Shown here: piece after piece, positions 19,822-24,554 of the stretch | How the letters are laid out: every line of letters starts with the position of its first letter | Position numbering within the stretch: the stretch's first letter is position 1 | Source: Niallia sp. Man26 | GTDB taxonomy: Bacteria > Bacillota > Bacilli > Bacillales > Cytobacillaceae | DNA: 64,000 bases | Direction: 5' to 3' | Assembly (NCBI RefSeq): GCF_022049065.2 | Contig: NZ_CP095743.1 | Coordinates: forward strand, 1,689,001 to 1,753,000 | The notes under the pieces: generated by a model | What the model saw: the letters and a program-made list of their open reading frames with translations, nothing else | Databases searched by the model: none | Told to the model about the DNA's origin: nothing | Program-made: the position numbers and the translations under genes

Positions 19822-20586
19822 TTATCTGTTGTCCACTTTTTCTGGATACAGATCGTGGTTCATAAGACGGTGTGTAGCCATTTCTTCAAACTTCGTGCCA
19901 GGCTTGCCGTAATTGCAGTATGGATCGATTGACAATCCACCTCTTGGTGTGAATTTGCCCCATACTTCGATATATCTAGGATCTAATAATTTAATTAGAT
20001 CGTTCATAATAATATTAACACAGTCTTCGTGGAAGTCACCATGATTGCGGAAGCTGAACAAATACAGCTTCAATGATTTACTTTCCACGATTTTTTTGTC
20101 CGGAATATAGCTGATATACATTGTAGCGAAATCCGGCTGTCCAGTAATTGGCTCTGCGATAAAACGCAGGTGGACTATATCATATACATATATTCTTACG
20201 GTCGAATATAAGCATCCTCGCGCTTCCATCCTGATTGGATGTACTCTACTTCCTTCTTCAAGCAGTACTTTTACCCGATTCCTGTTTGAATGGTTTCGAT
20301 AGTCTCTGCACCTTCCTCTAGTTTTTAGAGGCTTGGCTCAGGATTAGAATTTCCTTCCTTCCCTGAGTTCACGAGGTTTAAGCGACAGTGTTTCCACTGA
20401 AGTGTGCCCTTATTGACACAAGCTAGTAAATTCTGGACAGTTGAACTTAACGAAATAATCTCTGTTGACATGCAAGTTGTCTACAGACTCTAATATTTCT
20501 GGATTGTATTCGTAAAGATAGGTTGTTCCTTGGTTACCAAGTAAAGTTAAATCCTCAAGACCTTCTTCATGTTTTCTGCCTGACAT
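19822..20586 (-). CDS. queF: NADPH-dependent preQ0 reductase QueF, interrupted by a group I intron
   Basis: Reduces preQ0 to preQ1 in queuosine tRNA modification. Two exons on the minus strand join to a 166-residue protein, against 165 in B. subtilis. Exon 1 (20586-20416) encodes MSGRKHEEG ... [18 protein letters not shown]. Exon 2 (20151-19822) encodes [17 protein letters not shown] ... YPEKVDNR and carries the substrate-binding region and [11 protein letters not shown]. The join falls between the TGT of Cys57, the catalytic nucleophile (Cys55 in B. subtilis), and the following Pro codon. Read through without splicing, the frame stops one codon into the insert, giving 58 residues. GGAGAG lies before the ATG. 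The leader holds a preQ1-I riboswitch. A gene caller would report only a truncated protein starting inside the intron at 20229. Confidence 0.93.
20152..20415 (-). ncRNA. Group I intron (subgroup IA-like), 264 nt, no homing endonuclease
   Basis: Numbered from its first base (20415, reading down), all core helices can be drawn. P1: the exon end UGUGU plus intron C1 pairs with GGCACA (8-13), with a U.G at the splice site. P2: CAGUG/CACUG with a GAAA loop (17-30). P3: 40-46 with 194-200. P4: CUCAGG/CCUGAG (49-54, 74-79). P6: CCUCUA/UAGAGG (85-101). P7: GACUAU (112-117) with AUAGUC (238-243). P8: AUAUUC/GAAUAU (207-226). P9: CUGCG/CGCAG (247-262). R (GCAGAGACUAUCGAAACC) and S (GAUAUAGUCC) elements match consensus. 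The last base is G, as required. Hairpins between P7 and P3 indicate P7.1/7.2, typical of subgroup IA. No ORF fits inside. Confidence 0.92.
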
Positions 20587-20690: not shown

Positions 20691-20707
20691 AAGCTCACCT
20701 GTATCCA

Positions 20708-20744
20708 TAGTTTTTTATAGAGGGTATCTGCTATGAACCTCTTG
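20708..20744 (-). promoter_or_regulatory. PreQ1-I riboswitch aptamer
   Basis: The minus strand reads AAGAGGTTCATAGC ... ACCCTCTATAAAAAACT, which matches the class I preQ1 aptamer: P1 stem AGAGG/CCUCU and the A-rich 3' tail that folds back as a pseudoknot. It precedes queF, a preQ1-biosynthesis gene, the usual partner. With the downstream terminator it should repress queF when preQ1 is plentiful. Confidence 0.9.
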
Positions 20745-20765
20745 GATTATCATGTACAGCCATAT

Positions 20766-20792: not shown

Positions 20793-20931
20793 TATAACTG
20801 CCGAAACACTGCATGAAGCAAAATCAAACTCCATTTTATTAATTTTTTCAGTAAATTGTTCATATACATTAGTGACTAGATGGGTAGAGACGTACAAATT
20901 ACTGCCTTTTCTTAAAGGAGGTATAAAATAC

Positions 20932-23262
20932 TTGCATATAATTGGAAAGAGCATATTGCGTAAGGAATCGAAAAGCAAAGTCACCGGTTATGCCCACTAT
21001 ACTGCTGATACAACAACAGGAGAAGCGTTGTTCGTAAAGCTTGTCAAAAGTAAATATGCACATGCCAATATATTAAAAATAGATGAAACGAAAGCGCTGC
21101 AGCAAAAAGGAGTGCGTGCAATAGTCTTGGGAAAAGGCTTGCCTTATGTCGGAGAGGAAGTCCGAGACAGGCCGCCGCTTGCGTACAGCAAGGTTCGTTA
21201 CGCTGGTGAAGTGGTTGCCCTAATTGTTGCTGATTCGTATGACGCAGCAAATAATGCTGAGGTGCTGCTTGATATTAAGTATGAGCCGCTTACAGTCGTA
21301 AATTCGCCGCTCACAGCCATTCAAGCAGATGCTCCGCTCATTCATGAGGGCATAGATAAATACGATAAAGATCCAGGAATATATCCAATTACAGGGACAA
21401 ATATCATTAATAAAACGAAAATCCGCAAAGGCAATATGGAAAAAGGCTGGGCCGATTGTAGTGAAATAGTGGAAGCGTCTTTTTCTATCCCAATTTCAGA
21501 CCATAGTGCGATGGAAACAAGAAGCGCCACTTGTGAAATTATGCCTGACGGAGACGTGCGGATTATGACGAGTTCCCAGGCACCGTATATGGTCAAAAAA
21601 ATCCTCAGCAGAGACTTTCATATCCCAACAGGAAAAATTGTTGTGCAAACTCCATTTGTCGGGGGCGGCTATGGGGGCAAGGCCTCGGTGCAGCTTGAAA
21701 TATTTGCTTATCTTGCAAGCAAAGCAGTTGGTGGCAGGCTCGTTAAGTTAGTTAATACAAGAGAAGATGATTTTCTTGTATCTCCTGTTCATATCGGTTT
21801 AGAAGCAAAAGTAAAACTTGGCTGTTCTGCAGACGGGAAGCTGCAAGCGGCCGAGCTTGAATATATTTTTGATGGCGGAGCTTACGGAGATAAATCTCCT
21901 CATTTGACAACGGCAGGGGCAGTTGACTGCACTGGGCCGTATAAAATAGACAATATATTTTGTGACAGCTTATGTGTGTACACAAACCATCCATATGCAG
22001 CACCATTTCGCGGTTTTTCACATGGTGAGGTTCATTTTGCCTTCGAGCGGGGAATGGAATTACTGGCGAAAAAGCTGAAGATGGACCCACTGATGTTCAG
22101 GCAGATTAATGCGATTCGCCCAGGAGATCAAACGCCAACAAGAGTGGTGTTAAACAGAAGTACTGTCGGCAATGTGGAAGCATGTATTAGTCGCTTGAGA
22201 CCATTGATTGGCTGGGAAAAGGGGCAGGTTGAACGAATAGGGGAGCATGTGCTTAGAGTAAAAGGAATCAGCTGCAGCTGGAAAAACTCCACTATTGGTC
22301 CTGATGCAGCATCAGGTGTTGTGCTTACCTTTAACTCTGACGGCAGCATTAACCTTATGTCAGGTATAGTAGAGATTGGCACAGGCACGAAAACGGTGCT
22401 GGCACAAATACTGGCAGAAGTGATGAAGATGGATATAAATGATATATATGTGCGAATGACAATTGATACACAAACAGAACCTGAGCATTGGAAGACAGTG
22501 GCAAGCAGAGGAACATTGATGGCAGGCAGAGCAGTGCTAGCTGCTGCAAATGATGCTATTCAACAGTTGAAATCCATTGCTGCAACAGTAATGCGTGTGC
22601 CTGCAGATGATCTCGAGGTCGGTTATAAAAAGGTGTATCTGCGAGATAATCCTGATTCCTTCTTGGATTTCAAAGATATTGTGTACGGTTATGTTTATCC
22701 GAATGGCAATGCAATCGGCGGGCAAATTGTAGCAAGAGGAAAATATATTTTGAGAGGCTTAACAAATTTAGATCCAGAGACTGGGGCAGGAAACCCGGGC
22801 CCTGAATGGGCAGTTGCAGCTCATGGAGTCGAAGTGGATTTTAATACGAGAGAGTGTACATATCGAATTCGCAAGGCTGTAACTGTAATGGATATTGGTG
22901 AAGTTCTAAATTTCAAGGCCGCAGTCGGCCAAGTAAAGGGAGCCATGAGTATGGGGCTGTCATGGGCGGCCAGGGAGGCATTTTATTTTGACAAAAACGG
23001 CAGGATTCTTAATCCCCAATTGCGGACATATCGGCCCATCCGGTTTGGTGAACATCCAGAATATATCGCTGACTTTGTCAAAACTCCTCATTTAGAAGCA
23101 CCATTTGGAGCAAGGGGAGCAGGCGAGCATGGACTTATTGGCATTCCTGCAGCTTTAGCTAATGCGCTGTCATTGGCTGCAGGAGTAGAGCTAGTTAGAC
23201 TTCCGCTCATTCCTGAGGAAATTTGGAGAACAAAAAGGGAGACTGCCAAAAATGATCTTTGA
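20932..23262 (+). CDS. Molybdenum hydroxylase large subunit (xanthine dehydrogenase family)
   Basis: A 776-residue molybdopterin-binding subunit of an XDH-type hydroxylase. The AAAGGAGGT at 20913-20921 directs a TTG start at 20932; the longer frame from ATG at 20872 has no site and its extra 20 residues do not look like the family. Recognisable parts: RKESKSKVTGYAHYTAD at the N-terminus, TPFVGGGYGGKASVQLE at the Mo site region, HPYAAPFRGF, MEIGTG-like SGIVEIGTGTKT and the GARGAGEHG loop with the catalytic Glu. The FAD and Fe-S subunit genes overlap or follow directly, so this is a complete three-gene operon. Purine versus other heterocycle substrate cannot be settled; cofactor-insertion genes are absent from the window. 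Confidence 0.85.
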   Translation: MHIIGKSILRKESKSKVTGYAHYTADTTTGEALFVKLVKSKYAHANILKIDETKALQQKGVRAIVLGKGLPYVGEEVRDRPPLAYSKVRYAGEVVALIVADSYDAANNAEVLLDIKYEPLTVVNSPLTAIQADAPLIHEGIDKYDKDPGIYPITGTNIINKTKIRKGNMEKGWADCSEIVEASFSIPISDHSAMETRSATCEIMPDGDVRIMTSSQAPYMVKKILSRDFHIPTGKIVVQTPFVGGGYGGKASVQLEIFAYLASKAVGGRLVKLVNTREDDFLVSPVHIGLEAKVKLGCSADGKLQAAELEYIFDGGAYGDKSPHLTTAGAVDCTGPYKIDNIFCDSLCVYTNHPYAAPFRGFSHGEVHFAFERGMELLAKKLKMDPLMFRQINAIRPGDQTPTRVVLNRSTVGNVEACISRLRPLIGWEKGQVERIGEHVLRVKGISCSWKNSTIGPDAASGVVLTFNSDGSINLMSGIVEIGTGTKTVLAQILAEVMKMDINDIYVRMTIDTQTEPEHWKTVASRGTLMAGRAVLAAANDAIQQLKSIAATVMRVPADDLEVGYKKVYLRDNPDSFLDFKDIVYGYVYPNGNAIGGQIVARGKYILRGLTNLDPETGAGNPGPEWAVAAHGVEVDFNTRECTYRIRKAVTVMDIGEVLNFKAAVGQVKGAMSMGLSWAAREAFYFDKNGRILNPQLRTYRPIRFGEHPEYIADFVKTPHLEAPFGARGAGEHGLIGIPAALANALSLAAGVELVRLPLIPEEIWRTKRETAKNDL

Positions 23263-24076
23263 TTATTTCAGACCAGAGCGATTGCTGGAGGCGACGGAAT
23301 ATTTCACAGAAAGGCGGAAGGAAGGACGAATTCCGCTGTTTTTTGGGGGCGGCACAGAAATAATAACGATGCAGCGCCTGCATGAGATAACACTTGACAC
23401 AGCGATAGATATTAAAGCTATAGATGCTGTCAACATCCATGATATAGTGGAAGGCTATGTTGCGATTGGGGCGGCAGTGACACTGACAGAAATTCAGAAC
23501 AAAAACCTTTTCCCTCTGCTGACAGAGGTCAGCAAAGAGGTTGCAGACAGAACAGCACGCAATAAAATTACGCTCGGCGGCAATATTTGCGGCAATATCT
23601 TTTATCGGGAAGCTGTACTTCCCCTTCTTTTAGCAGACAGTCTGATTGTAACAGCAAAAGAGCGGGACATTAGGATGGAATATATTTCGGCAAAATTTAA
23701 GCAGAAAATGCTATTAGAGGAAGGGGAAGTCTTTGTCCAAGCCTTTGTGGAAGAAAAGTATCGAAAGCAGCCGTTTTATACTAGAAAGAAACGACAGCAA
23801 TGGGAAACTGGTTATCCGCTGATTACAGCTGCAGCATTAAAGGTCGACCAAAAAATACGGGTTGCTTTCAGTGGATTATGTGCATTTCCATTTCGTTCAA
23901 ATGAAATGGAGGCTGCACTAAATGAAGCAGAATTAAGTGCTGAGCAAAAAATAAATAAAGCAATTCAAACTGTGCCAGGCGAAATTCTCGATGATGTGGA
24001 AGGTTCTCGTGAATACCGGTTATTTGTGCTTAGAAATCTGCTCGAGGAAATCTTACAAAGCTTGGAGAGGATGTAG
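23252..24076 (+). CDS. Molybdenum hydroxylase FAD-binding subunit
   Basis: A 274-residue CoxM/XdhB-type protein. It opens FDYFRPERLLEATEYF, has the FAD loop FFGGGTEIITMQR near residue 30-40 and the second FAD motif KITLGGNICGNIFYREAVLPLLLA. The C-terminal domain is the CO-dehydrogenase flavoprotein type. It overlaps the large-subunit gene by 11 nt and is followed within 2 nt by the Fe-S subunit, consistent with coupled translation. It passes electrons from the Fe-S clusters to NAD or another acceptor. Confidence 0.85.
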   Translation: MIFDYFRPERLLEATEYFTERRKEGRIPLFFGGGTEIITMQRLHEITLDTAIDIKAIDAVNIHDIVEGYVAIGAAVTLTEIQNKNLFPLLTEVSKEVADRTARNKITLGGNICGNIFYREAVLPLLLADSLIVTAKERDIRMEYISAKFKQKMLLEEGEVFVQAFVEEKYRKQPFYTRKKRQQWETGYPLITAAALKVDQKIRVAFSGLCAFPFRSNEMEAALNEAELSAEQKINKAIQTVPGEILDDVEGSREYRLFVLRNLLEEILQSLERM

Positions 24077-24077
24077 C

Positions 24078-24554
24078 ATGCATATACCAGCAAAAAAAAC
24101 ATTAATAAAGCTGTTTGTTAATGGGGAGGAAAAACAGGTCGCTATTGTTCCAAATAAAACACTTTTGATGGTGATCAGAGAGGAGCTTCATTTAACAGGC
24201 AGCAAACCAGGCTGTTTAAATGGTGATTGTGGTGCATGTACGATGCTTGTCGACAATGAGCCTATGAAATCATGTCTTATGCTTGGAGTTGAAGCAATCG
24301 GCAAGGAAGTTGTAACAGTAGAGGGTCTGCATGAAGCTCCTATCCAAAAAACCTTTATGGAGCAATTCGCCTTTCAATGCGGTTATTGCACCACAGGGTT
24401 TATTATGAATGCCCATGCCCTGACACTTGTGCCTGATCCTTCAAAAGAGCAGATACGTGAATGGCTGTCATCCAATATTTGCCGTTGTACGAGCTACGAG
24501 GAAATAGAGCAGGCAGTTATTCAAGCGATGAACATAACAAGGGGAGGGCAGTAG
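24078..24554 (+). CDS. Molybdenum hydroxylase 2Fe-2S subunit
   Basis: A 158-residue small subunit with two [2Fe-2S] sites. The plant-ferredoxin-type N-terminal domain has CLNGDCGAC and a later Cys in KSCLM. The C-terminal helical domain has CGYCTTGF and NICRCTSYEEI. GGAGAGGATG overlaps the end of the FAD gene, placing the start at 24078. The upstream in-frame extension to 23991 lies inside the FAD gene and is rejected. The stop codon sits within the operon's terminator hairpin. Confidence 0.9.
   Translation: MHIPAKKTLIKLFVNGEEKQVAIVPNKTLLMVIREELHLTGSKPGCLNGDCGACTMLVDNEPMKSCLMLGVEAIGKEVVTVEGLHEAPIQKTFMEQFAFQCGYCTTGFIMNAHALTLVPDPSKEQIREWLSSNICRCTSYEEIEQAVIQAMNITRGGQ

Follow-up and report, generated by a model that had tools for sequence, protein, structure and literature searches.

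The window (the whole 64,000-nt stretch of Niallia sp. Man26 DNA that was analysed) carries on its minus strand a queF gene, encoding preQ1 synthase, that is interrupted after the Cys57 codon, between codons 57 and 58, by 264 nt (20415-20152). The insert opens with CAA TAA, which closes the queF frame after one codon, and ends in GCAGAG. Coordinates read directly from the sequence agree with a preliminary description of this DNA, in which queF was split after Cys57, met an in-frame stop after one codon and resumed at Pro58. The 166-aa length given there for the product of the joined exons was confirmed; this product scored 176.6 bits against the NCBIfam QueF-II model, over the cut-off of 86.9, and exon 1 alone (plus one residue) scored 32.5 bits. 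Residues 4-166 of the joined product align with the solved 7-cyano-7-deazaguanine reductase 4f8b (165 aa), and Cys57, which we take to be the catalytic cysteine (Cys55 in B. subtilis numbering), is aligned to a position occupied by Ala in chain 4fgc. No second queF was found in this genome, its two QueF matches being the halves of the split gene. The longest ORF across exon 2 begins within the insert and encodes 135 aa, and gene finders may annotate queF here as broken. Beside queF, three plus-strand ORFs (20872-24554) look by eye like subunits of a molybdenum hydroxylase (xanthine dehydrogenase-like). The features of the locus are collected in Table 1.

Table 1. Features of the interrupted queF locus, in coordinates of the 64,000-nt window.
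Feature	Position	Strand	Description and evidence
preQ1 riboswitch	20701..20747	-	leader of queF; RF00522 38.8 bits, just under the cut-off of 39
queF exon 1	20416..20586	-	codons 1-57, ending TTG TGT (Leu56 Cys57); partial QueF-II match; 4f8b alignment
P1, exon side UGUGU	20416..20420	-	final U forms the U-G pair of the 5' splice site; TGTGT in 29/29 intron-bearing queF
Group I intron	20152..20415	-	264 nt, without endonuclease ORF, final G at 20152; RF00028 57.3 bits, covariation
In-frame stop TAA, intron codon 2	20410..20412	-	stop here in 27/29 introns
Internal guide sequence GCACA (P1, intron side)	20403..20407	-	folding and alignment
P2 hairpin CAGUG-GAAA-CACUG	20386..20399	-	GNRA loop in 29/29; one compensatory pair
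P3, 5' strand CCUCGUG	20370..20376	-	one pair C-G in 11, U-A in 5
P4, 5' strand	20361..20366	-	alignment
P5/L5 region	20344..20360	-	site of most of the endonuclease-like ORF in long relatives
P4, 3' strand	20338..20343	-	alignment
P6 and P6a	20310..20337	-	alignment
P7, 5' strand GACUAU	20299..20304	-	invariant, 16/16
P7.1 helix region	20257..20290	-	group IA feature; two-sided changes at 9/9 pairs
P7.2 hairpin	20227..20241	-	two-sided changes at 2/4 pairs
P3, 3' strand CGCGAGG	20216..20222	-	alignment
P8	20184..20215	-	two-sided changes at 6/11 pairs; U-U pair in window copy and three other rows
P7, 3' strand AUAGUC	20173..20178	-	invariant, 16/16
P9 hairpin CUGCG/CGCAG	20154..20169	-	adjoins 3' splice site; relatives keep the hairpin with different bases (by eye)
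queF exon 2	19822..20151	-	CCA ATT ACT GGA..., codons 58-166 (109 codons) and stop; QueF-II, 4f8b alignment

The insert was scanned with the Rfam group I intron model RF00028, the check which the preliminary description had proposed, and scored above the cut-off of 50 bits (E 6.7e-12 in 64 kb); this was the sole Rfam match in the window to exceed its own cut-off. The same model exceeded its cut-off in 8 of the 11 loci of relatives that were scanned, the other three (L055, L084 and L122) giving no match above it. Against R1, a covariance model built from queF introns, the window intron scored 301.8 bits, a value to be read knowing that the same sequence helped to build the model. Its folding z-score was -3.8, and none of 100 shuffles was equally stable. 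By its covariance score and its P3-P9 core with P4 (P:Q) and P7 (R:S), the insert is a group I intron. All of the helices claimed for it earlier (P2 with its GNRA loop, P3, P4, P6, P7, P8 and P9) were recovered, and the exon U at the 5' site and the final G also held, the U-G pair being present in 16/16 aligned rows; the terminal G is found in 28 introns and in L127, five of these (L047, L055, L060, L076 and L078) coming from a scan that requires a G. The 6-bp P1 stands when the first base of the intron is included, the exon:guide pairs proper being five. The GG directly upstream of the guide could pair with the CC of exon 2 as a short P10 (by eye).

Covariation was assessed on 16 of 29 introns collected from relatives, with L5 inserts longer than 24 nt cut to 24, using a 60-pair model that comprises P1, P2, P3, P4, P6, P6a, P7, P7.1, P7.2 and P8. 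Over the 60 pairs and 16 introns, 99.0% of the 960 cells are paired, against at most 49.6% in controls with slid partners. Two-sided changes occur at 22/60 pairs, and every measure lay above all 500 shuffles; since the aligned rows share kinship, these shuffle counts are not probabilities. The two-sided, pairing-preserving changes fall in P2, P3, P6a, P7.1, P7.2 and P8, including a joint replacement of C-G by U-A in P3 in five rows. P1, P6 and P7 are invariant in the 16 rows, and the one variation in P4 is a one-sided change at a single pair, so that the support for these helices comes from conservation. The intron is assigned to group IA because P7.1 and P7.2, extra helices between P7 and P3, are present. 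The two adjacent hairpins suggest subgroup IA2, to which the queF intron probably belongs. Apparent partial copies of the P6/P7 segment were noticed by eye in the P6a loops of the L119, L123 and L125 introns, and P6 of the L121 intron is enlarged by about 200 nt of inserted sequence.

The 29 introns lie at the identical queF nucleotide, in Niallia, Anoxybacillus and allies, Aeribacillus, Ectobacillus, Heyndrickxia and Bacillus; the same insert in relatives, which the preliminary description had suggested looking for together with its empty site, was thus found. Within the genus, intron DNA was matched in 7/13 genomes, the window's included, and queF is in two pieces in these seven; the remaining six carry an uninterrupted queF, that is, the empty site. 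A match to the intron DNA in G016 was short and weak, and located in a different gene. Genome contigs were also scanned for PxTGQPDFA codons preceded by a G, which returned 37 stretches. By tblastn, 21 of them were queF with intron sequence ahead of exon 2: four Niallia records (one a MAG titled Bacillus sp.), twelve Anoxybacillus, Aeribacillus composti, Ectobacillus panaciterrae, Bacillus sp. 165, B. chungangensis and Heyndrickxia sporothermodurans. In three of the 21 (L050, L072 and L075) exon 1 lies outside the retrieved stretch. The other 16 stretches (Sphingopyxis and others) were dropped as having no QueF match. The scan requires a GGN codon (TGQPDF), and relatives that read T-R/H/N-QPDF therefore fall outside it.

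At wider ranks, queF was split in 7/9 genomes of the genus of G175 (that of Anoxybacillus thermarum) and in 17/41 genomes of its family. With strict filters, under which weak matches are lost, R1 searches recovered the queF intron in 8/397 genomes of the order, each at 190 bits or more, and in 3/398 genomes of a class sample. An R1 match of any kind occurred in 53 genomes in the order search, host genes being inspected where a locus was given. The queF of G065, matched over residues 60-166 only, has a one-base frameshift and no intron; this frameshift (L042, G065:C1:3377200-3380000) lies a few codons past the Cys57 codon and is either an error or real decay.

The lengths of the 29 introns leave remainders of 1, 0 and 2 on division by three in 13, 11 and 5 cases, respectively; as 18/29 are not multiples of three, only removal from the RNA preserves the queF frame. 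When the exons are joined, the frame is open over at least 158 codons in all 29. Ten queF pairs gave dN of 0-0.011 and dS of 0.118-0.829, a substitution pattern by which the exons are under strong constraint. QueC and QueA, which act in the steps before and after QueF, have open frames in the window's genome, and the pathway is thus kept on either side of QueF. The guide-matching TGTGT is present in 29/29 intron-bearing queF versus 9/54 uninterrupted ones (the latter being the best-scoring 30 of about 137 from one search and 24/24 from another); on independent pairs the association is a one-way trend (4.2 versus 0, median p 0.125) that is not significant. The stop at intron codon 2 is spelled TGA in 11, TAA in 9 and TAG in 7 of the 27 introns that have it, and in L009 and L010 the first intron stop is at codon 13. 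In-frame stops of other bacterial group I introns have been viewed as evidence that ribosome stalling may aid folding and splicing (PMC3984707), and by analogy the early stop of the queF introns may help in the same manner.

Six of the 29 introns (1158-1201 nt) contain an open frame of 290-340 codons, located mostly in L5 and continuing into core sequence at its 3' end; in the window intron the longest forward open run is 62 codons. The product of the L066/L122-type ORF matches phrog_8446, 'HNH endonuclease', at E 1.5e-8, as do 4/4 of its homologues, and nothing in Pfam or NCBIfam scored above cut-off. Its structure model is weak (pLDDT 62.3), and no solved fold was retrieved below E 0.001. 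A search of about 5.8 billion proteins, which detects proteins of similar length that have 5-residue words in common, gave five homologue clusters, 5/5 with an (N/D)PEPS motif that is encoded by the intron core after L5. Between L083 and L084 the ORF gave dN 0.056 and dS 0.639. Two introns, L086 (875 nt) and L119 (768 nt), have a broken ORF, and pieces of the ORF can be seen by eye in some shorter copies.

The introns of L083 and L087, from two species, are identical at 1166/1171 positions and their ORFs have a dS of 0.021, against 0.426 for queF; those of L123 and L125 are identical at 364/364 shared positions, with a queF dS of 0.419. Mismatches near the junction are few in both pairs, and L120/L122 has four within the 30 bases of exon 2 that adjoin the junction. 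Such near-identical introns in diverged queF, as in L083/L087, suggest recent homing; ordinary recombination could explain them as well. On the queF exon tree, in which long branches were flagged, the intron label needs nine changes, at least six of them by supported branches, gain and loss not being separable. In the intron tree (27/29 rows with L5 cut to 24 nt, leaving out one exact duplicate and L121 for its large P6 insert) the named rows cluster by host, and much of the pattern is therefore accounted for by inheritance with losses. Long residence combined with recent local spread fits these data best. One third of the intron matches five Aeromonas phage records at 74%; a plasmid search with the intron and a phage search with the ORF gave no match.

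Taken together, the locus is read as a self-splicing group IA intron between queF codons 57 and 58, belonging to a Bacillaceae lineage that occupies this one site and in which some copies bear an HNH-type ORF; from the sequence evidence, the probability of this reading is put at about 0.94. In the transcript, the guide GCACA would pair with the exon end UGUGU to form P1, a bound guanosine would attack the 5' site after the U, and the freed exon would then attack after the terminal G, the ligated exons encoding the 166-aa QueF. The stop two codons into the intron would halt ribosomes ahead of the ribozyme core. Copies with the HNH-type ORF, if it has the predicted endonuclease activity, probably home into empty queF alleles, and the window copy is presumably an ORF-less, immobile descendant.

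Were the insert a decayed intron and queF a pseudogene, preQ1 would have to be salvaged or queuosine lost. The one mark of decay in the window copy is the U-U mismatch in P8, which all four Niallia rows aligned from its subgroup share, and it must be set against fully paired P3, P4, P6 and P7, an exon constraint that is strong in the window gene itself (dN 0.007, dS 0.540 versus L005), the open QueC and QueA frames, and the same split state in six other genomes of the genus; we consider such a history very unlikely. Ribosome bypassing and programmed excision occur in other systems, and on these precedents the insert might be bypassed by the ribosome or removed at the DNA level, with no splicing. 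A group I core with covariation already explains the sequence, and we give this suggestion almost no credence.

A different question is whether the intron is something other than a passenger, with splicing acting as a switch that sets the amount of QueF according to translation or nucleotide state, through coupling to exon 1 translation or to the preQ1 riboswitch. A preQ1 aptamer does lie upstream of queF, the early stop is conserved, and ORF-less copies are found in seven Niallia genomes, where such a benefit could explain why they persist. The aptamer does not adjoin the intron in the window, however, but ends 286 nt upstream of its start at 20415, and in L047, L055 and L060 an aptamer lies about 2 kb from queF; in the window and in the relatives' loci scanned, no sign of a tie between aptamer and intron was seen. 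The nine changes of the intron label on the queF tree also speak against a regulatory role, as do close relatives that manage without the intron, and we regard one as improbable. If true, splicing at the catalytic-cysteine codon, behind a preQ1 riboswitch and an early stop, would benefit the host. Aptamers near queF were also detected above cut-off in L042 and L076 and under it in L006 and L010. Just downstream of the window aptamer, a hairpin followed by T residues (20690-20661) looks by eye like a riboswitch terminator.

Other group I matches were encountered outside the window. In the same genome, rtcB (RNA ligase; L002, G000:C1:1582569-1582864) is split between ...VGV and DIGCGM by another group I intron, which scored 48.4 bits against the cut-off of 50; similar inserts occur in three congeners and in one genome of another family (L162-L165, the downstream exon of L165 being unseen), and the site is empty in both relatives examined (L166 and L168). 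A ribonucleotide reductase gene of this genome (L003, G000:C2:188907-189420) is split by a weaker match of 25.2 bits, whose insert holds a fragment that looks like GIY-YIG by eye. In another genus, a gene that by eye is thymidylate synthase-like (L011, G016:C1:2376185 region) has a group I intron of 105.1 bits.

The preliminary description had suggested that queF might be an undescribed intron host, and nothing in the open-licence PMC papers searched contradicts it: no report of a group I intron in queF was found there, and one may exist elsewhere. As far as was searched, queF is a new host gene and site for a group IA intron, an element of a kind already known. Phage-type group IA introns are similar to it, those on viral contigs L196-L199, which were selected for an exact match to 22 bases of the P6-P7 segment, scoring 62-99 bits with R1; in contrast, two patterns run against viral contigs returned no queF copy. 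In a vibrio phage genome, queF-like ORFs have a homing endonuclease ORF in their vicinity, and the available part of its description mentions no queF intron (PMC3468402). The best R1 match outside queF in the 397 genomes of the order, at 87 bits, lies in a B12-dependent ribonucleotide reductase gene (labelled from one partial profile match, the rest by eye); the Bacillaceae introns of this type thus differ from the queF introns, which score at least 190 bits (n=8), but R1 was built from queF introns. In Clostridioides difficile a c-di-GMP riboswitch is combined with a group I ribozyme, and queF likewise has a riboswitch and a group I ribozyme in one transcript; unlike that system, its aptamer stands apart from the intron and, judged by eye, probably works through a separate terminator.

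Close parallels are the group I introns of the bacterial protein-coding genes recA, nrdE, nrdF and flagellin (PMC3984707), with which the queF intron shares a group I core, a conserved protein-gene host, an in-frame stop (in many of them) and endonuclease genes (in some). It differs from them in its host, queF being absent from that review, and in occupying one site in many species. Its interest lies in this site, its spread and its experimental access: within one set of genomes, a single position in a chromosomal housekeeping gene is empty in some alleles and elsewhere filled by copies whose endonuclease-like ORF is present, broken or lacking, and some species pairs have near-identical introns in diverged genes. 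Because one site shows these states, gain, homing, decay and loss are measurable in culturable bacteria.
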